A stretch of DNA of 44,634 nucleotides. Source: a virus. The stretch spans positions 1-44,634 of the IMG/VR virus record IMGVR_UViG_3300030406_004104. The stretch is one strand, 5' to 3'. The notes beneath the pieces were generated by a model. It saw nothing but the letters and a program-made list of their open reading frames with translations, was not told the origin of the DNA and ran no database searches. Shown one piece after another: positions 18,963 to 42,864 of this stretch. Positions within the stretch are counted from its first letter, which is position 1; every line of letters begins with the position of its first letter. Position numbers and translations under genes: made by a program.

Positions 18963-19985
18963 TTATTGATTTTGTTTTGCTATTGCGTTACCTTGTGCTA
19001 ATTGTATAGCGCCTTGTAATACTTCTGGATTTTTAACTACAAATCCACTGTATGCTAATACGCTAGATATAACTTCTGTTTCTTGTGATTTATGTAAAGT
19101 AAAATCAGTTGAACCTTCAGTTGAACTACTATATAAATCCTGTGTTCTTAACGTTAATACTACAGGAGATAAACTACTACTAGGCATAGCTACGTTACTT
19201 ATGCTTATAGTATCACCTACAGAAAAACCACTACCAGCAGCGGTAAACTCAACACCTGTTACTGTGTTACCTACTACTGTTAAATTAAACGAAGCTCCAG
19301 TTCCTGATCCGCTTGTTGTTACACCACTATCTCCAATTGTGAAACTATATACTTGACTTGTAGTTATGTTTGTAATGTTTGTACTTATAATGTTTGTTGA
19401 CTTAGTGCCTAATATAATACCACCTTCAACAAAAGGGTTTGGATCATATATATTTATACCATAAGTAGTATCTGTTGTATAACCAAATCTAGGTTCTTGC
19501 GGCATCTTTATATATTGCAGTACTAAGTTTTTTATTGTTTGTGGGTTTACAACTAATGAATTATCTGTTTGATAATATACTGGAAAGTTAACTGATGGTA
19601 CAGTTAATGGTGAAGAGTTTAAATATGGTAATCTGTTTTTATCTATTTTTTCTATCTTTGTATTACCTGATACTAAATCTAATATCTGGTATACATTTGA
19701 TGGTAATGCAAATAAGTTACCATTTAATTCAGATAAAGTATGAGTTGCGTAAAACTCATCTATTTGTTCTTGTATTTTACTAGGAATATCAGCGAAACCT
19801 TCGTTTGTACGATTAACGTTTTCAATATTTAAAAACTTATTATAATCATAAAACAATTTATCTAACATTTCTAACTGTACTTGTCTAGCAATATTATTAA
19901 ACTCATAAGGAGTTAAATAACCTCTTTGTTCTTTGTTTAGTATAGACAAGGCTGTTTTATATACTTGGTTTACGTTAATTGCCAT
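18963..19985 (-). CDS. Ring/adaptor structural protein
   Basis: 340 aa from the ATG at 19983-19985 (MAINVNQVYKTALSILNKEQRGYLTPYEFNNIARQVQLEML). An in-frame GTG at 20010-20012 would add nine residues but lies inside an inverted repeat, so the ATG is preferred. The first 100 residues are helical, in the style of short-tail ring proteins that contact the portal. The middle is beta-rich, with a Ser/Gly/Thr segment (about 205-280) that looks like a surface-exposed insertion ('SGSGTGASFNLTVVGNTVTGVEFTAAGSGFSVGD', which resembles repeats found in phage neck and fibre proteins). It follows the 253-aa protein and precedes the 369-aa adaptor. The structural role is inferred from context. Confidence 0.55.
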   Translation of the reverse strand: MAINVNQVYKTALSILNKEQRGYLTPYEFNNIARQVQLEMLDKLFYDYNKFLNIENVNRTNEGFADIPSKIQEQIDEFYATHTLSELNGNLFALPSNVYQILDLVSGNTKIEKIDKNRLPYLNSSPLTVPSVNFPVYYQTDNSLVVNPQTIKNLVLQYIKMPQEPRFGYTTDTTYGINIYDPNPFVEGGIILGTKSTNIISTNITNITTSQVYSFTIGDSGVTTSGSGTGASFNLTVVGNTVTGVEFTAAGSGFSVGDTISISNVAMPSSSLSPVVLTLRTQDLYSSSTEGSTDFTLHKSQETEVISSVLAYSGFVVKNPEVLQGAIQLAQGNAIAKQNQ

Positions 19986-20805: not shown

Positions 20806-20834
20806 GATATAATATAATAAAAATTAAAAAATAT

Positions 20835-20867
20835 AAAGAGCTAGGGTGCCGAAGCACCCAACTCTTT
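20835..20867 (-). terminator. Strong Rho-independent terminator after the capsid gene
   Basis: As - strand RNA: AAAGAG, UU, GGGUGC, loop UUCG, GCACCC, UAG, CUCUUU, then a tract with AUAUUUUUUAAUUUUU. The 6-bp G:C-rich stem capped by a UUCG tetraloop, extended by a second 6-bp stem and followed by a U tract, is a textbook intrinsic terminator. It starts 10 nt past the capsid stop codon. This should set a high capsid-transcript level apart from the tail genes downstream. Confidence 0.9.
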
Positions 20868-20877
20868 AATAAATATA

Positions 20878-30428: not shown

Positions 30429-32441
30429 CTACCTACCATCACTAAAAGGCTTGTTACCAAGCTGTCCATGTTTATCTGTAGAAAATATTGCAGTATTTAA
30501 AGCGCCGCCAGTAGAAGTAGCAAAAGCAAGCTGATACCAACCAGTAGTTGTAGAATAACCAGTACTAAACGTAGTAGTTGTTGTAAACGTAGTAGTGGTA
30601 TTAAAAGTAGTGGTAGTATTAAACGTAGTAACTGTTGACGTACTAGTATTGAACGTAGTTAATGTACTAGTATTAAAAGTAGTTGTTGTGTTAGTACTAG
30701 TATTAAAAGTTGTTGTAGTAGCTGTACTTGTATTAAACGTTGTAGTAGTAGCCGTGCTAGTATTAAATGTGGTAGTAGTAGCCGTACTTGTATTAAACGT
30801 AGTCGTAGTATTTACATTTGTACTAAAAGTTGTTGTAGTAGAAGTAGAGGTATTAAATACAGTTGTTGTACTTACGTTAGTACTAAAAGTAGTAGTCGTT
30901 GATCTGTTAGTGCTTCTGCTAGTTGCAAACGTAGTAGTTGTTGACGTTGACGTATTAAAATTAGTAACAGTAGTAGTACTAGTATTAAACGTAGTAGTTG
31001 TACTCTTACTAGTTGCTGTACTTGTGTTAAATACTGTTACGGTAGCAGTGCTTGTGTTAAACACTGTAGTTGTTTGTGTATTAAATACTGTTGACGTAGA
31101 TTTACTAGTAGTAGTACTTGTGTTAAACGTTGTAGTATAAACAGTAGTAGTTGATCTTTGAGTTGGCAAGCTTTCATCACCTGCAGCTGTAGTTCTGCTT
31201 GTACTAACTACCGTATTAGTAGTATATACAGTTGACGTAGTATAAGTAGTTATAGTTGTATAAACTGTGCTAGTACTTCTACTCGTACTAAATGTTGTAG
31301 TTGTATTTCTATTAGTACTTACTGTTGTTGTTCTACTAGTAGATGTTGTTCTACTCGTGTTAAACGTTGTTACTGTCGAAGTACTTGTGTTAAATACTGT
31401 ATTAGTAGTATATGTAGTAGTAGTGCTCCTACTCTCTGTAGTACTTCTTGAAGTAGCAAAAGTTGTAGTTGTACTTTTATTAGTACTTATAGTAGTTGTT
31501 CTACTTGTAGCTGTAGACTTACTAGTGTTAAATGTAGTAACAGTACTAGTGCTCGTATTAAATGTAGTTGACGTAGTATACACGGTAGTAGTACTCCTAC
31601 TTTCAGTAGTATTTCTATTTGTAGAAAAAGTAGTAGTAGTAGACTTATTAGTTGTTCTACTAGTATTAAAAGTGGTGGTAGTACTTTTACTTGTTGAAAA
31701 AGTAGTAGTAGTACTTCTTGATGTAGCAAATGTAGTTGTATAAGTAGTTACAGTTGATGTGCTTGTATTAAATGTAGTAGAAGTTGTATATACAGTACTT
31801 GTAGTATAAACTGTACTTGTATTTCTACTTGTACTAATAGTTGTTGTTCTACTTGTAGAAGTTACAGTACTTGTATTAAATGCTGTACTTGTAGTGTACG
31901 TAGTTGTTGTATTTCTTGTTTCAGTAGTGTTTCTACTAGTAGAAAATGTTGTTGTCGTTGTTCTAGTAGTAGATACAGTTGTTGTTCTACTAGTACCTGT
32001 CGTCCTGCTAGTATTAAAAGTTGTAGTAGTACTATACTCTGTTATAGTATTACGACTTTCACCAGTGTTTCTAGACGTATTAAAAGTTGTAGTAGTTGCG
32101 TATACAGTAGTTGTATTTTTACTTGTTCCAGTAGATCTAGACGTATTAAATGTAGTCGTAGTATTATAAGCTGTTGTAGTATTAAATGTTGTAGTGGTGT
32201 TATAAGATGTAGTTGTGTTTCTACTTTCACCAGTGTTTCTACTTGTATTTCTAGTTGTATTAAATGTAGTTTCTCTATCAGTTTCTCTAATAGTATTAAA
32301 AACAGTAGATGTAGCATATACTGTATTAGTTGTATACGCTGTTGTAGTAGACCGACTAGTCGAGCCCTGCGACACATAAATCGTTATAAACGACGTCGTT
32401 GTATTTCTTGAAGTTGCTGTAGATCTACTAGTACTTGGCAT
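30429..32441 (-). CDS. Giant Thr/Ser decapeptide-repeat protein B
   Basis: 670 aa. Almost the whole chain is Thr, Ser, Asn, Phe/Tyr and Val in a 10-residue repeat of the type [ST]-T-x-T-[TV]-F-N-T-S-[TRK]. The register is clearest near the C-terminal end, where four consecutive units code 'TTTTFNTSTA'. The N-terminus (MPSTSRSTATSRNTTTSFITIYVSQGS) is only slightly different. The last 40 residues leave the repeat (TGWYQLAFATSTGG..GQLGNKPFSDGR). A single non-repeat island 'AAGDESLPTQ' lies near residue 420. There is no TM or signal peptide. It is probably a fibrous virion protein, as alternating Thr suggests stacked beta-strands. It is a paralogue of the 742-aa protein two genes upstream. Confidence 0.7.
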   Translation of the reverse strand: MPSTSRSTATSRNTTTSFITIYVSQGSTSRSTTTAYTTNTVYATSTVFNTIRETDRETTFNTTRNTSRNTGESRNTTTSYNTTTTFNTTTAYNTTTTFNTSRSTGTSKNTTTVYATTTTFNTSRNTGESRNTITEYSTTTTFNTSRTTGTSRTTTVSTTRTTTTTFSTSRNTTETRNTTTTYTTSTAFNTSTVTSTSRTTTISTSRNTSTVYTTSTVYTTSTTFNTSTSTVTTYTTTFATSRSTTTTFSTSKSTTTTFNTSRTTNKSTTTTFSTNRNTTESRSTTTVYTTSTTFNTSTSTVTTFNTSKSTATSRTTTISTNKSTTTTFATSRSTTESRSTTTTYTTNTVFNTSTSTVTTFNTSRTTSTSRTTTVSTNRNTTTTFSTSRSTSTVYTTITTYTTSTVYTTNTVVSTSRTTAAGDESLPTQRSTTTVYTTTFNTSTTTSKSTSTVFNTQTTTVFNTSTATVTVFNTSTATSKSTTTTFNTSTTTVTNFNTSTSTTTTFATSRSTNRSTTTTFSTNVSTTTVFNTSTSTTTTFSTNVNTTTTFNTSTATTTTFNTSTATTTTFNTSTATTTTFNTSTNTTTTFNTSTLTTFNTSTSTVTTFNTTTTFNTTTTFTTTTTFSTGYSTTTGWYQLAFATSTGGALNTAIFSTDKHGQLGNKPFSDGR
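30540..32430 (-). repeat. 30-bp tandem coding repeat (decapeptide array B)
   Basis: Adjacent 30-nt units can be lined up by eye. From about 30660 to 30840 the + strand shows the core 'GTATTAAA' (or 'GTACTAAA') once every 30 nt. Units differ mostly at third codon positions, mixing ACT, ACA, ACG and ACC for Thr while the encoded residues stay constant. The array is therefore old and kept by selection on the protein. The opposite strand shows long Val/Leu-rich open frames that are a by-product of this composition. Confidence 0.8.
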
Positions 32442-33010: not shown

Positions 33011-35239
33011 TTATCTAGGTCCACCTGGTCCATCACCACCATCTCCACCGCCTTCACAAGCTGTCACTCCAGTTACTAAACCATTGTTGCCTACAGTTAT
33101 AGCGTGTGATGCTCCGCTAATAGCGCTACTACCAATACCATAATTACCTGAAGCTAATGGGTTTGTACCACCTGAGTTAGTGTATAAGTAATCATTAACT
33201 TGAATAACTTGTGACGAACTATTACCACTACCAACTTGTCTATAAACAACAAAGTTAAGTGATGCAGTACAAGAGAAGAACGAGAATACTTGAGCGGCAC
33301 TTCTATATCTAGTTTGAAGAGCTGCAGCAGTGTTAAACGTTGTTATAGTGTTAAACTGTGTAAGCGTGCTTGTACTAGTAAATTTAACTTCTTGTGTACT
33401 TGTATTAAACGTCGTAGTAGTGTTTCTACTTTCCGCTGTATTTCTACTTTCTGTTGTAGATCTACTAGTAGAAGCAGTAGTATTAAACTCTGTATCATTA
33501 CTTACTTCAAACGTAGTACTATATGTTGTACTTGTAATGTATGATGTAGTAGTACTTCTACTTTCACCTGTACTTCTACTTGTAGCAGTTGATCTGCTTT
33601 CAGCTGTACTTCTACTAGTATTAAATGTTGTAGTAGTGTTAAATGCTGTAATTGTACTTCTACTTTCAGTAGTACTTCTACTAGTATTAAACGTAGTACT
33701 AGTTGTATAGCTAGTAAGTGTGCTTCTGTTTTCTAATGTACTTCTTGAAGTGTTAAACGTAGTAGTAGTGTTGAACGCTGTAGTTGTACTAGTGTTAAAT
33801 ACAGTTGTAGTAGATTTAGTAGTATTAAACGTAGTTAATGTAGTATATACTGTTGATGTAGTTCTACTCTCTGTTGTGTTTCTACTTGTACTAAATGTTG
33901 TAGTAGTAGTAAATACAGTTGTAGTACTTGTATTAAATACAGTACTTGTATTCCTAGTTTCTGTAGTGTTCCTACTTTCAGTTGTGTTTTTTGAAGTAGC
34001 AAACGTAGTCGTAGTACTTCTATTTGTTATTCTACTGGTATTAAAAGTAGTTGTAGTTGTTGTGCTAGTATTAAACGTTGTAGTTGTTGATCTATTAGTG
34101 CTAAACGTGGTTGTATATACTGTTATAGTTGATGTACTAGTATTAAACACTGTGTTTGTAGTATATACAGTTGTAGTAGATCTTGACTCAGTTGTATTTC
34201 TACTTGTTGCAAAAGTTGTTGTAGTACTACGAGTTGTATTGAAAGTAGTTGTAGTATTAAACACTGTAGTCGTGCTTGTATTATACACGGTGTTTGTAAC
34301 TGTACTTGTGTTAAAAGTAGTGGTTGTAGTGTATACGGTAGTTGTGCTTCTACTTTCAGTTGTATTTCTGTTAGTACTAAATGTTGTCGTTGTACTACGT
34401 GTAGTATTAAACGTAGTTGTTGTATTAAACGTAGTTGTAGTACTAGTATTGTAAACAGTATTAGTAACCGTACTAGTGTTAAACGTAGTTGTAGTATTTC
34501 TAGTTTCTGTAGTACTTCTTTGCTCTGTTGTGTTTCTACTTGTTGTTGTGGCTGTAGAAGTATTATAAACAGTTGTTGTTTGACTTGTATACTCAGTTAA
34601 CGTAACTCTACTTGTAGTCCTTGATGTGCTAAACGTAGTTGTATATACAGTATTTGTTGATCTAGTAGTAGATACAGTTGTAACTCTACTTGTGCTTACA
34701 ACAGTATTGGTTGATATACTAGTAGGTACTGTAGTACCAAAGCTTGTAGTAGTAGATCTAGTTGTTGCAAACGTTGTTGTTGTACTCCTTGATGTTGCGA
34801 AAGTAGTTGTAGTACTTTTGCTTGTATTAAATGTAGTGTTAAACGTTGTTACAGTTGATGTGCTAGTATTAAAAACTGTTATAGTTGATCGGGATGTGTT
34901 GAATACTGTGTTAGTAAGTGTTGATGTGTTAAAAACAGTATTAGTTGTTCTTGAAGTAGATACAACAGTATTAGTTGCTCTACTAGTTGAGAAAGTTGTA
35001 GTTGTATTTTTAGACGTGCTTACAACTGTACTTGTATTTTTAGATGTGCTTACAACTGTACTCGTTGATCTTGATGTAGAAAAGGTAGTTGTTCTTGATG
35101 TACTAAAAGTAGTAGTAGTGCTTCTTGAAGTACTAGTTGTTCTTGTTGTACTAGTTGACCTCGAAGTAGTTGTTGATCTAGTAGTGTTATTAGCAGTACC
35201 GGTGCCCCAAAAATCTATTCTGTTCCACAACCAGTTCAT
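33011..35239 (-). CDS. Giant Thr/Ser decapeptide-repeat protein A with C-terminal adhesin-like module
   Basis: 742 aa. It has a short N-terminal anchor (MNWLWNRIDFWGTGTANN), then about 590 residues of decapeptide repeats. In one hand-counted 100-residue stretch there are 44 Thr and 17 Ser, set as ten consecutive rows such as TNTVFNTSTL and TSRSTTTTFA. Higher-order duplications of about 55-60 residues occur in the middle. The last 120 residues are ordinary: 'FSFFSCTASLNFVVYRQVG' and 'YLYTNSGGTNPLASGNYGIG ... AITVGNNGLVTGVTAC', ending Gly/Asp-rich. That final module resembles the end of the 1250-aa nozzle protein. No signal peptide is present, so it is most likely a virion fibre or surface coat. 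The fibre genes lie immediately upstream. Confidence 0.7.
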   Translation of the reverse strand: MNWLWNRIDFWGTGTANNTTRSTTTSRSTSTTRTTSTSRSTTTTFSTSRTTTFSTSRSTSTVVSTSKNTSTVVSTSKNTTTTFSTSRATNTVVSTSRTTNTVFNTSTLTNTVFNTSRSTITVFNTSTSTVTTFNTTFNTSKSTTTTFATSRSTTTTFATTRSTTTSFGTTVPTSISTNTVVSTSRVTTVSTTRSTNTVYTTTFSTSRTTSRVTLTEYTSQTTTVYNTSTATTTSRNTTEQRSTTETRNTTTTFNTSTVTNTVYNTSTTTTFNTTTTFNTTRSTTTTFSTNRNTTESRSTTTVYTTTTTFNTSTVTNTVYNTSTTTVFNTTTTFNTTRSTTTTFATSRNTTESRSTTTVYTTNTVFNTSTSTITVYTTTFSTNRSTTTTFNTSTTTTTTFNTSRITNRSTTTTFATSKNTTESRNTTETRNTSTVFNTSTTTVFTTTTTFSTSRNTTESRTTSTVYTTLTTFNTTKSTTTVFNTSTTTAFNTTTTFNTSRSTLENRSTLTSYTTSTTFNTSRSTTESRSTITAFNTTTTFNTSRSTAESRSTATSRSTGESRSTTTSYITSTTYSTTFEVSNDTEFNTTASTSRSTTESRNTAESRNTTTTFNTSTQEVKFTSTSTLTQFNTITTFNTAAALQTRYRSAAQVFSFFSCTASLNFVVYRQVGSGNSSSQVIQVNDYLYTNSGGTNPLASGNYGIGSSAISGASHAITVGNNGLVTGVTACEGGGDGGDGPGGPR
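33380..35190 (-). repeat. 30-bp tandem coding repeat (decapeptide array A)
   Basis: The same 30-nt unit as in array B, with frequent 'AGTATTAAA' cores on the + strand and variable Thr codons. Units with 'TESRSTTT' and 'TVYTT' alternate with 'TTTTFNTS' units, so super-repeats of 50-60 residues are visible (for example the twice-occurring block from TFNTSTVTNTVYNTS to NTTESRSTTTVYTT). No frameshift breaks the 1.8-kb array. Confidence 0.8.
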
Positions 35240-35656: not shown

Positions 35657-35669
35657 ATATATTATATTT

Positions 35670-35698
35670 AAAATAATACTGACGGCACCGAAGTGCCG
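35670..35698 (-). terminator. UUCG-loop terminator after the fibre gene
   Basis: As - strand RNA: CGGCAC, loop UUCG, GUGCCG (35698-35683), followed by UCAGUAUUAUUUUAAA. The 6-bp G:C-rich stem with a UUCG loop is the same design as the terminator after the capsid gene, but the downstream U tract is weaker. It begins 16 nt beyond the stop of the 622-aa gene and separates the fibre gene from the repeat-protein block. Confidence 0.8.
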
Positions 35699-35714
35699 CC
35701 GTATTTAATTATTA

Positions 35715-39230: not shown

Positions 39231-39671
39231 TTAACGATCGTTGTCTTTAATCATATCATCGATTGCTTTATTAAAGACTTTATCGCTATATGATTTATTA
39301 TTATAAAAAATACTTCGCTCACTAGTTGGTAAGTCTTCTTCACCTAGTAGTATGCGATATATTCTGCTAATTAATTGCGAACATTTAAATGAAGTTTTGA
39401 ATATAGAAAATTTAATTGAAGTGCGGTTGCGATGTCTCCATACCTCTATCCAACCTTTGGACCGTAGTCGTTCCCATCGCTGCTTATCCCATGAGTACGT
39501 GTAAGTACCGTCGATAAACTCTTGTCTTGTAAATCTTTGTTTACAGTCGAGATATATAAGTAATTCTAAGTCGGCATCATTTAAGTCATAAGTTTTACAG
39601 GCCCATTTACGTACGAGCCTGTAATACTTGAATAATTGTATTTCTCTTAAATCAGATGCACTTAATTTCAT
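39231..39671 (-). CDS. Winged-helix (MarR-like) putative transcription regulator
   Basis: 146 aa: MKLSASDLREIQLFKYYRLVRKWACKTYDLNDADLELLIYLDCKQRFTRQEFIDGTYTYSWDKQRWERLRSKGWIEVWRHRNRTSIKFSIF.... The order helix, 'LNDADLELLIYL' helix, 'FTRQEF' helix, 'DKQRWERLRSKGWIEVW' recognition helix plus turn, then the beta-wing, is a good fit to MarR-type winged helix-turn-helix proteins. The C-terminal helices ('CSQLISRIYRILLGEE') would dimerise. It may control late genes. The stretch coding the recognition region (39421-39480) is about 55% G+C, far above its flanks. Its ATG overlaps the end of the GroES-like gene by 4 nt. Confidence 0.5.
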   Translation of the reverse strand: MKLSASDLREIQLFKYYRLVRKWACKTYDLNDADLELLIYLDCKQRFTRQEFIDGTYTYSWDKQRWERLRSKGWIEVWRHRNRTSIKFSIFKTSFKCSQLISRIYRILLGEEDLPTSERSIFYNNKSYSDKVFNKAIDDMIKDNDR

Positions 39672-39925
39672 TCGATTATTACTACATCCGAGTGTTTAAT
39701 AACATAGTAATACTTATTATTAAACTCTATACCGTGGCCAGCGTGCTTATCGTACCATACTATATCACCAGCATTAATACCAACAACACTATCACCAACA
39801 CTTATAATCTCTCCTTTTAAATACCTAATGTCTATGTTCTGGTCTTCAGTTAATTCTAGACCAGCTATTTTATTAGCTTTAGGTTTTATTTTATTTATGA
39901 TTATGTAATTATTTACTGCTTTCAT
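39668..39925 (-). CDS. groES: Co-chaperonin (GroES/Cpn10 family)
   Basis: 85 aa. '[83 protein letters not shown]' aligns with GroES over its whole length: the first strand, a mobile loop with the hydrophobic tripeptide-like LEL (residues 23-25), KGEIISVG, the GDIVWYDK strand, and the terminal strands with the SDVVII end. The loop is shorter than in E. coli GroES (97 aa). It caps the GroEL cavity during folding. It overlaps the 3' end of the GroEL gene by 17 nt, so the two are coupled, in the order groEL-groES, opposite to most bacterial operons. Confidence 0.8.
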   Translation of the reverse strand: MKAVNNYIIINKIKPKANKIAGLELTEDQNIDIRYLKGEIISVGDSVVGINAGDIVWYDKHAGHGIEFNNKYYYVIKHSDVVIIE

Positions 39926-41474
39926 TTGTCCTCATGTTTGAAATTACACAATCAGCTGATATAATAGTACTAACAACAGATACTGCATTACGTAATGCGG
40001 ACTTAGTTACTAGTACTGGATCTATGATACCAGCTCTAATCATATTAACCTTTTTACCTGTTACAACGTTTATACCTTGACCTAAGTTTAATTTATCAGG
40101 GTGAGGTATGTTTGCGTTGTCTAATATTGTTTCAAAAGGTTTGCAAATTGATTTTAATAATATTTTTTCACCTACGTTAGCAGGCTTTATTGTAGTCGAT
40201 GCATTTAGTAATGCTACACCACCTCCAGGTACTATACCTTCTTGTAATGCGGCTTTTGTAGCGTATATAGCATCTTCAACTCGATCTTTCTTTTCTTTCA
40301 GCTCGATCTTTGAATTAGCACCTACAAAAACTATAGCGACTGATCCTGCTAGTATAGCTAGTCTTTGTTCTAGCTTTTTTCTTATATAAGGATTTTTGTC
40401 TTCTTTAGCAATTTGCTTCTTTATTCTTGTTACACGTTCTTGTAAATCTTTACCAGCTTTGTTAACTGTAAATACTGTTTTTTTATTATCGGTAACAACT
40501 TTAACTGCTTCGCCTAAACAATCAGGCTCTATAAAGTCAAAATCATCGCCTAATTCTTCATTTATTATTTTAGCCCCTAACACTATAGCAAGATCTTCTA
40601 TAGTATCTTGTTTAGTAGGACCAAAGCCTGGTAAGTCAACTATGTTAACTTTTATATTACCTTTTACTTTATTAGCTAGTAAAGCAGCTTTAGGTTGTTG
40701 ATCTAAGTCTGCTACTATTAATAAAGATCTATTAGATTTAATACAATGTTCTAATATATTTTGTATTCTTCTTATATTAGGTATTATAGAAGAAGATATA
40801 AGTACTAGTGGATTATCTAGCTCTGCTACGTTACGATCTTTATCAGTAACTAAATACTGAGATGTTAAACCTGAATCTATTTGTACACCATCAACAACAT
40901 CTACATAAGTATCACCTGTTGGTGACTCTTCCATCAACACAACACCGTCTTGCCCTACTTTTTTGTAAGCCTCCGATATAATTTCACCAAGTTGTTTATC
41001 ATTGTTTGTTGATATGGTGGACACGTGAGTAAGTAAACTATCATCAACGGCTTTACTTTTGTTTTCCAAAAACTTAATAACTTTGTCTGTACCGCTTTTA
41101 ATACCTTCTTTAACTTCTCGTAAACTATCATACTCTGTTTCTTCAACTGTTTTTAATAGCGAATGAGCAAGGACGGTAGCTGTAGTAGTACCGTCACCTG
41201 CTTCTTTCACAGTGTTATTCGCCGCCTCTTTAATTAATGTAGCGCCTATGTTTTCAACCGGATCATATAAGACAACAGATTGTGCAACTGTTACACCGTC
41301 TTTTGTAATCACCGGTTTACCTAGCGCGTCTTCGTAAACTACGCATTTACCTGAGGCACCAAGTGTAGACTTAACCGCATTGTTCAGCTTCTCTACACCC
41401 TTAATAACTTTATCTTTGGCTTCATTGCCAAACATCAGATCTTTGACGATCTGACTAGGTTGATTATATTCCAT
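39909..41474 (-). CDS. groL: Chaperonin GroEL homologue
   Basis: 521 aa. A clear GroEL throughout: '[38 protein letters not shown]' (ATP-site region), 'G93[10 protein letters not shown]' with D94 equal to catalytic D87 of E. coli, '[22 protein letters not shown]' apical domain, '[26 protein letters not shown]' with the conserved glycine run, and a C-terminus ending [10 protein letters not shown] without the usual GGM repeats. It refolds client proteins in a double ring. Phage-encoded GroEL is known in some large and marine phages but is uncommon. Together with the GroES gene just downstream it gives the phage its own folding machine, probably for capsid or repeat-fibre proteins. The 5' region (41281-41340) is about 47% G+C. 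Confidence 0.92.
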
Positions 41475-41497: not shown

Positions 41498-41791
41498 TTA
41501 TTTAAATGTTTTAACTACCTTAGGTCCTGACAAAAACTCTAGACGCTTGCTGTAGTGTTCGATACTACCATCAATTGCTGACTCAGCGGACTCTATAGTT
41601 TCCCTTCTTGTTACGTCGTGCCAAACGTCATCTACGATGTCTTTGTACTCTGTTTGGTAGTAACCATTAGGTAGTTGTGTAATTCTCCAGTTCTTTTTTT
41701 CACTTAGGTGTTGCCAAAAGTCTTTGGTTTCCTCGGACACATTAGGGTTGGAGTTATCCCATGTTGTGGTTTTGTAATAAAAATAATTCAT
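41498..41791 (-). CDS. Small acidic protein, first gene of late/chaperonin operon
   Basis: 97 aa from the ATG at 41789-41791 (MNYFYYKTTTWDNSNP). A longer frame to 41824 would run into the pseudoknot element and is not preferred. The sequence has aromatic and charged patches ('FWQHLSEKKNWRITQLPNGYYQTEYKDIVDDVWHDV', 'SAESAIDGSIEHYSKRLEFL'), looking like one small alpha/beta domain. No TM, Cys or known motif is seen. It lies 23 nt upstream of GroEL, so it is probably co-transcribed with it. Its leader carries the H-type pseudoknot. The function is unknown. Confidence 0.5.
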   Translation of the reverse strand: MNYFYYKTTTWDNSNPNVSEETKDFWQHLSEKKNWRITQLPNGYYQTEYKDIVDDVWHDVTRRETIESAESAIDGSIEHYSKRLEFLSGPKVVKTFK

Positions 41792-41815
41792 AATTAAGGT
41801 TTTTATTTTGGTTAT

Positions 41816-41857
41816 GCGAAACATGGTTAAATGTAGAGTGGTTTCGCTTACACTCTA
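41816..41857 (-). promoter_or_regulatory. H-type pseudoknot in the 5' leader of the chaperonin operon
   Basis: In the - strand RNA the blocks are UAGAGUG (41857-41851), UAA, GCGAAAC (41847-41841), CACUCUA (41840-41834), an 11-nt loop, and GUUUCGC (41822-41816). Stem 1 (7 bp) pairs blocks one and three. Stem 2 (7 bp) pairs blocks two and four. The stems abut with no linker (coaxial), loop 1 is 3 nt and loop 3 is 11 nt, an ideal classical geometry. Stem 2 ends 24 nt before the ATG at 41791. It could control translation of the first gene or act as a protein-binding site. Confidence 0.6.
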
Positions 41858-42134
41858 TAAGTTAGATAATTACATAAATTTAATTTAATTTAAAATAGTG
41901 ACACTTGCCTATTACTATTAAGATCTATATAGCTAATGTCATACTAGTTATAACGAGTATTTGTGTTGCCACTCTCTATACGTAGTACACTTGTATAATA
42001 AAAATGCATTTTGTAAATACCACGGGCCCACTATTTGTACATTTTTTATAAATATTTTCACATTTTACTATTATATACTTATATTTTTTATTTTTATATA
42101 ACAACTTTTTACAATGTTACTACATAGTTGTATT

Positions 42135-42551: not shown

Positions 42552-42613
42552 TCTAACTTTTTACAACTCGGCGTTACATTATTCTCTCGAGTATAAATAC
42601 AGTTGAATCATAA

Positions 42614-42657
42614 CTCGTCTTGGAGCAGTGGTGTGTTTCGATTACACACACGAGTAC
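42614..42657 (+). ncRNA. tRNA-like acceptor/T-arm minihelix
   Basis: ACTCGTC (42614-42620) can pair with CACGAGT (42650-42656) over six of seven positions. Between them a 12-nt linker precedes a T-arm-like hairpin: TGTGT (42633-42637), loop TTCGATT, ACACA (42645-42649). The 7-nt TTCGATT loop is exactly that of a tRNA T-loop, the 5-bp stem and 7-nt acceptor segment have tRNA lengths, and an A follows as a discriminator would. D and anticodon arms are absent, so this is not a working tRNA. It may be a tRNA-derived small RNA, an RNA mimic, or a remnant. Confidence 0.35.
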
Positions 42658-42678
42658 TAACAATTAAAAATAATAACT

Positions 42679-42864
42679 ATGTTTAAATTTCATTTCAATA
42701 AAGTATACAAATACGTAAAAAGTAAACCAGTAGTCGAAATATTTTTTGATGCTGTAGCGATGGGCTTAGGTACACTAGCAGTAACAGGTATCGCTTTCAT
42801 GATATTCACAATAGTAACTGGCGGAGCAGCTGATGCTAACTTTAACTGTGGAATTTGTTACTAA
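42679..42864 (+). CDS. Small membrane protein
   Basis: 61 aa: MFKFHFNKVYKYVKSKPVVEIFFDAVAMGLG..., with one long hydrophobic helix at about 22-47 (IFFDAVAMGLGTLAVTGIAFMIFTIV) and a short tail with two Cys (NFNCGICY). The basic N-terminus predicts an in-to-out orientation with the Cys end outside. It is likely inserted in the host inner membrane early in infection, perhaps for superinfection exclusion or membrane remodelling. It starts in the motif ATAACTATG, and its stop overlaps the next start (TAATG). Confidence 0.6.
   Translation: MFKFHFNKVYKYVKSKPVVEIFFDAVAMGLGTLAVTGIAFMIFTIVTGGAADANFNCGICY

Follow-up and report, generated by a model that had tools for sequence, protein, structure and literature searches.

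A paired RNA element ahead of the first late gene

What does a small, tightly paired sequence do at the head of the late operon of an uncultured phage, and does it act as an RNA structure at all? The window analysed here is the entire 44,634-nucleotide stretch of IMG/VR virus record IMGVR_UViG_3300030406_004104. Its leftward late operon begins with ORF97 (97 amino acids; 41498..41791, minus strand), followed on the same strand by groEL (39909..41474; Pfam Cpn60_TCP1 1.9e-47, phrog_5725 8e-134), groES (39668..39925; Pfam Cpn10 6e-9) and g146, while the early genes diverge rightward. The initial annotation had placed an H-type pseudoknot in the leader of the first gene upstream of GroEL/GroES, and the order ORF97-GroEL-GroES agrees with this. 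Its description as the leader of a chaperonin operon is right in that the element precedes groEL and groES, but too narrow: the element heads the whole late block, consisting of ORF97, the chaperonins and then the structural genes in a transcription unit of roughly 40 kb, and is not chaperonin-specific. The minus strand also encodes two Thr/Ser/Asn-rich low-complexity proteins with NTSTTTTFNTS-like repeats (30429-32441 and 33011-35239), which are probably fibre-like structural proteins.

The element lies on the minus strand at 41857-41816. As first described, it comprises two interleaved, perfect 7-bp stems in H-type order: the S1 5' arm TAGAGTG (41851..41857), loop 1 TAA (41848..41850), the S2 5' arm GCGAAAC (41841..41847), a second loop of 0 nt, the S1 3' arm CACTCTA (41834..41840), the 11-nt loop 3 CATTTAACCAT (41823..41833), which contains AACC, and the S2 3' arm GTTTCGC (41816..41822). 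Geometrically, loops of 3, 0 and 11 nt with 7-bp stems fit an H-type pseudoknot, and 24 nt separate its 3' end from the ORF97 start codon at 41791.

The stacking energy of this arrangement (-22.8) was reached by none of 5000 dinucleotide shuffles of the 90-nt leader, and by this measure it is one of the two strongest pseudoknots in a minus-strand scan with a cutoff of -19. Under a first-order Markov model with generous loops, about 0.075 perfect 7+7 bp H-type sets are expected per 44.6-kb strand. These figures support the earlier statement that chance occurrence is low, which is nevertheless weakened by further 7+7 sets in A/T-rich coding sequence of the window, at ~40740-40794 in groEL and at ~39723 in groES. 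Because such sets occur, the case for the pseudoknot rests on its evolution and not on pairing alone. Nested folding of the leader recovers S2 only, with an unremarkable z of -1.15, as expected for a pseudoknot.

Two other roles for the sequence were considered and rejected. An in-frame ATG at 41824, inside the pseudoknot, could be an alternative start. The window and the one relative found to share this architecture (locus L001) both leave its frame open, but the added residues show no conservation, and type-B relatives (see below) have no ATG at that place. A stimulator of frameshifting or readthrough is likewise rejected, as S1 precedes or contains the stop codon wherever an upstream gene exists; no upstream gene was found 5' of the pseudoknot in the window. 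L001 and most type-B relatives retain the loop-1 UAA, which in type B serves as a stop codon but in the window closes no reading frame.

Pseudoknot architectures change while pairing is kept

Covariation across related phages had been proposed as one check. ORF97 is encoded in at least 593 matching stretches, representing several hundred metagenomic phage contigs, and the ORF97-GroEL-GroES-g146 block is intact in nearly all of the 80 viral contigs inspected. Searches of viral contigs for the DNA pattern of the window pseudoknot, both exact and with gaps allowed, matched L001 alone. Its S1 (TAAGGTG/CACCTTA) differs from that of the window by two double compensatory changes and gains an eighth pair, and its S2 (GCGAAAAC/GTTTTCGC) is lengthened by 1 bp through a paired insertion.

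We then compared the leaders of more distant ORF97 homologues, of which 157 were classified: 2 belong to type A (the architecture of the window and L001), 6 to type B, 14 to type C and 82 to type D, with 45 forming a hairpin and 8 showing no structure. Type B (S1-UAAN-S2-C-S1'-AACCAA-S2') is related to type A, and AACC(A) recurs in loop 3 of both L001 and type B. Type C follows the layout ACCGUG-GAAA-CAGAGGA-CACGGU-...-UCCUCUG, and type D the layout CCC-N-GCUC-GGG-NN-GAGC and variants. Types B and C overlap the end of an upstream gene.

Within these classes, the pairing is retained as the sequences diverge. In types A and B together, 92 of 93 cells of hand-assigned stems pair, compared with a mean of 77% and a maximum of 90% when the 3' arms are dealt at random; the uncompensated loss of pairing in relatives that would have argued against the element was therefore not what we found. 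Type C traces compensatory paths in both stems: one S1 pair is T-A in most members, T.G in L048 and C-G in L212, and S2 runs from CAGAGGA/UCCUCUG through CAGGGGA/UCCUCUG (L002) to CAGGGGA/UCCCCUG (L141). For type D, the 3' arm was not alignable by MAFFT and the statistics are therefore based on a structural parse, in which S1 and S2 fit 75 leaders, with one G.U in S2, and 213 of 217 cells pair over 31 different forms, and both partners show exchanges at 5 of the 7 pairs. S1 shows C-G/A-U exchange, while S2 occurs as GCUC/GAGC, GCCC/GGGC, ACUC/GAGU and GUCC/GGAC and, in later loci, as GCCA/UGGC and GCAC/GUGC.

The signal is also specific to this position. A best pseudoknot energy of -12 or lower was obtained for 73% of 197 ORF97 leaders, against 9% of shuffles. 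Before groEL the frequency did not exceed the control (5% versus 5.5%), and before groES (28.5% versus 22%) and g146 (33% versus 24%) there was only a slight excess. Comparison among relatives thus provides strong support for a functional H-type RNA pseudoknot ahead of ORF97, in the leader of the groEL- and groES-containing operon. Chance pairing, for which one could cite the other 7+7 sets in coding sequence, is contradicted by the covariation, that is by compensatory evolution at a conserved position, and we consider its probability negligible.

The class of leader has nonetheless switched at least 18 times along the GroEL tree, and recombination could lie behind part of these switches. Such freedom bears on the functions first proposed, namely a translational switch, a binding site for a phage repressor or a metabolite sensor. 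The element does share with the preQ1-I, SAM-II and SAM-V riboswitches a small H-type pseudoknot within a 5' leader. Unlike them, however, it has no Rfam match and no conserved ligand core: at gathering score, Rfam covariance models run on the window and seven related loci returned only tRNA, plus a sub-threshold chance hit to U11, and stems and loops differ wholly between types, leaving no conserved pocket beyond AACC. We therefore regard a small H-type metabolite riboswitch as very improbable and prefer, among the three proposals, a translational switch or protein operator.

A near-invariant AACC-repeat leader

Between the pseudoknot and the start codon lie ~25 nt of unstructured, A-rich RNA with AACC(A/T) repeats, which in the window carries two AACC (41813-41810 and 41801-41798, minus strand; overall 41798..41813). 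At least two ACC within 45 nt of the ATG were present in 197 of 198 distinct ORF97 leaders (154 of 154 in the first set), most commonly by far in the form AACCAA. The mean ACC count is 2.69 before ORF97, compared with 0.42 before GroEL, 0.19 before GroES and 0.10 before g146. Leaders that lack a pseudoknot retain the AACC motifs, and no such leader was found before the other late genes examined in the window.

These properties could be read as those of a ribosome standby site, in which the fold serves as a structural insulator that shields the A-rich AACC region from pairing with RNA further upstream; that region would itself be a strong ribosome-loading site for a Bacteroidetes-type host that initiates independently of Shine-Dalgarno sequences. 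Consistent with this, the fold stops ~20-35 nt short of the ATG, the leader beyond it stays open, and Flavobacteriia are the hosts of related phages: the terminase relatives of the window are mostly phages of Flavobacterium and Cellulophaga, along with Tenacibaculum and Maribacter, and the closest cultured relatives of these uncultured phages infect Flavobacteriia. An insulator, however, would have no need of covarying coaxial pseudoknots, and a general loading site sits poorly with the restriction of the leader to ORF97 among the late genes examined. On balance, we think this explanation improbable.

A conserved late promoter and the predicted 5' end

Upstream of the first late gene, many relatives share the motif TGTCAC-N-TTTAAAT-N-TGTAATTAT, present in L001 and, in the window, at 41866-41903 on the minus strand, with the TGTCAC box of a conserved late promoter at 41898..41903 and the -10-like element TGTAATTAT at 41866..41874. 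The latter 9-mer occurs in 20 of 44 divergent intergenic regions, whereas any 9-mer reached at most 8 in shuffles. In many relatives the ATG of the first gene often lies exactly 7 nt past TGTAATTAT, which suggests leaderless or near-leaderless late mRNAs. Applied to the window, the same spacing predicts an RNA start at ~41858, one base ahead of S1, and in L001 at the first base of its 8-bp S1; both promoter and start are assigned from motif spacing alone. A start downstream of 41816, which the initial annotation had named as a reason to abandon the element, is thus not what the promoter motif predicts.

In 35 of the 39 type-D leaders that bear an AAACAAGTRAT-like motif, S1 is found 17-18 nt from its AGT, and 43 type-D leaders, many of them directly behind an upstream gene, lack this motif. 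On this prediction, some phages have the pseudoknot at the very 5' end of the mRNA, whereas in others it lies within the transcript. We also noted a second promoter-like motif, AAACAAGTGATNA (2168-2131, minus strand), common to the gene at 2130 and many type-D leaders, and a G/C palindrome, GGGCCC, at ~42023-42029 (GGGGGCCCCC at 4750-4759 of L001), in an otherwise A/T-rich divergent intergenic region.

A fold at the very start of a transcript might stabilise it, and a 5' mRNA stabiliser is the chief rival to the operator discussed below. Here, 5'-end structure would block 5'-end-dependent decay, any stable fold would suffice, and AACC would be a separate ribosome-loading element that enhances translation. 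This accords with the fixed distance of S1 in the 35 type-D leaders and with the predicted start, which for both the window and L001 falls at +1/+2 of S1; it also accords with the class switches, which include plain hairpins, as though only some structure were required. Yet types B and C and many of type D are internal to an mRNA behind an upstream gene, where a primary 5' end is not expected; pseudoknots predominate although hairpins would serve; and the gene-specific AACC repeats are left unexplained. We judge this account unlikely, if still worth serious consideration.

The predicted 5' end also recalls leader RNAs that act on transcription in the manner of the put antiterminator RNAs, with the fold modifying RNA polymerase for a long operon, and the late unit does hold hairpins followed by T-rich DNA. 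But the element stays at ORF97, not at the promoter, when other genes intervene, and the AACC repeats adjoining the ATG point to translation, which makes a role of this kind a distinctly poor prospect.

Other RNA elements in the window

A second element lies at 20037-19995 (minus strand), before an ATG at 19985, and reads UUUAUAGAG-GUGGUCAU-CUCUAUA-GG-UGACCAC-UUA-CUAUAAA. Most of the relatives found (loci L261-L288) conserve this element, with clear compensatory changes and stem variants such as GUGGUCA/UGACCAC, GUAACCA/UGGUUAC and GUAGUCA/UGACUAC, among others. Since it is mainly an extended hairpin, we treat it apart from the ORF97 pseudoknot; a two-state or pseudoknotted form is possible, as the stem's 5' base is an alternative pairing partner for the loop. 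GC-rich UUCG-type hairpins occur between late genes at 20806-20877 and 35657-35714 (minus strand), the former after the probable major capsid gene and followed by a T-rich stretch, as in a terminator. Finally, a tRNA-like remnant with D-arm-like GGAGCAGTGG and T-arm-like GTGTGTTTCGATTACACAC sequences, not called by ARAGORN, precedes the ORF at 42679 (42610-42660, plus strand).

A candidate translational operator

The layout of the ORF97 leader resembles that of the T4 gene 32 operator, in which protein binding is nucleated at a pseudoknot and extends cooperatively across UUAAA repeats and the ribosome-binding site (PMC535899, PMC3014915), although the sequences are unrelated. Applied to a T4-like gene 32 leader, the same scan recovered its pseudoknot at positions -71 to -44; 1 of 1000 shuffles did as well. 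As in gene 32 of T4, T2 and RB69, an H-type pseudoknot occupies the 5' part of the leader, ahead of the initiation region, and an unstructured A/U-rich tract with short tandem repeats extends up to the start codon; sequence diverges between relatives while topology stays, and some relatives lack the pseudoknot. Moreover, just as the T4 pseudoknot overlaps segG, those of types B and C overlap the upstream ORF. There are also differences. The phages are of another lineage, with relatives that infect Flavobacteriia; the repeats are AACC(A/T) and not UUAAA, with no Shine-Dalgarno; several unrelated pseudoknot architectures occur among ORF97 leaders; protein binding is here only putative; and ORF97 heads a chaperonin and structural operon instead of encoding an SSB. 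As the downstream gene is no relative of gp32, we do not place the element in the gene 32 operator family.

Two further systems are instructive. The E. coli rpsO (S15) operator includes the ribosome-binding site, unlike the ORF97 pseudoknot, which stops 24 nt before the ATG. Nevertheless, this translational operator too contains a pseudoknot within the mRNA leader (PMC3014915). The T4 gene 43 operator, a protein-bound hairpin ~40 nt before the start codon (PMC3014915), is comparable to the hairpin-type ORF97 leaders, but has no pseudoknot and precedes a DNA polymerase gene.

By analogy, the 5' pseudoknot and the repeat-bearing, unstructured leader may together form a translational operator of the gene 32 kind, a reading to which we give somewhat less than even weight. 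The pseudoknot would sit at or beside the point where the late polycistronic mRNA begins, and its coaxial stems would offer a nucleation site for an RNA-binding protein of the phage (or host). Once bound, this protein would extend across the AACC repeats and keep 30S subunits from loading at ORF97; translational coupling would then lower expression of the genes behind it. ORF97 itself would be the simplest candidate repressor, because it always lies directly downstream of the leader. Against an operator, AACC is still there in the 45 hairpin-only and 8 structure-less leaders of the 157, so that the pseudoknot is not strictly required; moreover, the footprint expected for the 30S subunit stops just short of the pseudoknot, which by itself masks no ribosome site.

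ORF97 has 31 invariant columns in 58 homologues. It has no PHROG match and no significant Pfam match, is not encoded by any GenBank phage searched, and shows no detectable relationship to SSBs. Its predicted core (pLDDT 80, pTM 0.61) consists of a helix, three strands and a helix, and fold searches gave weak matches to YegP/UPF0339 (Z 6.2 over 51 residues) and weaker ones to the AP2 and lambda-Int DNA-binding (beta3-alpha) domains (Z near 3.5). The predicted beta3-alpha core would suit a nucleic-acid-binding protein but is no proof of one. Matches to ORF97 in bacterial and archaeal genome assemblies all come from metagenome-assembled bins, many labelled with unrelated taxa (loci L415-L432 carry relatives in bins labelled as archaea, Chloroflexi, Aliivibrio and others), and are probably mis-binned phage contigs.

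We tentatively propose, then, that the ORF97 leader is a candidate protein-bound translational operator of the late operon, with its chaperonin and structural genes, and represents an undescribed RNA family in an abundant marine clade of phages, in which pseudoknot architectures have been rebuilt lineage by lineage while joined to a near-invariant AACC leader. If this is true, it would be a second, independently evolved instance of the gene 32 principle. The leaders examined share a comparable layout with repeated turnover of the pseudoknot, a natural series for studying what such operators require. The element would also link a regulatory RNA with phage-encoded GroEL/GroES and with the timing of late genes in phages not yet cultured.
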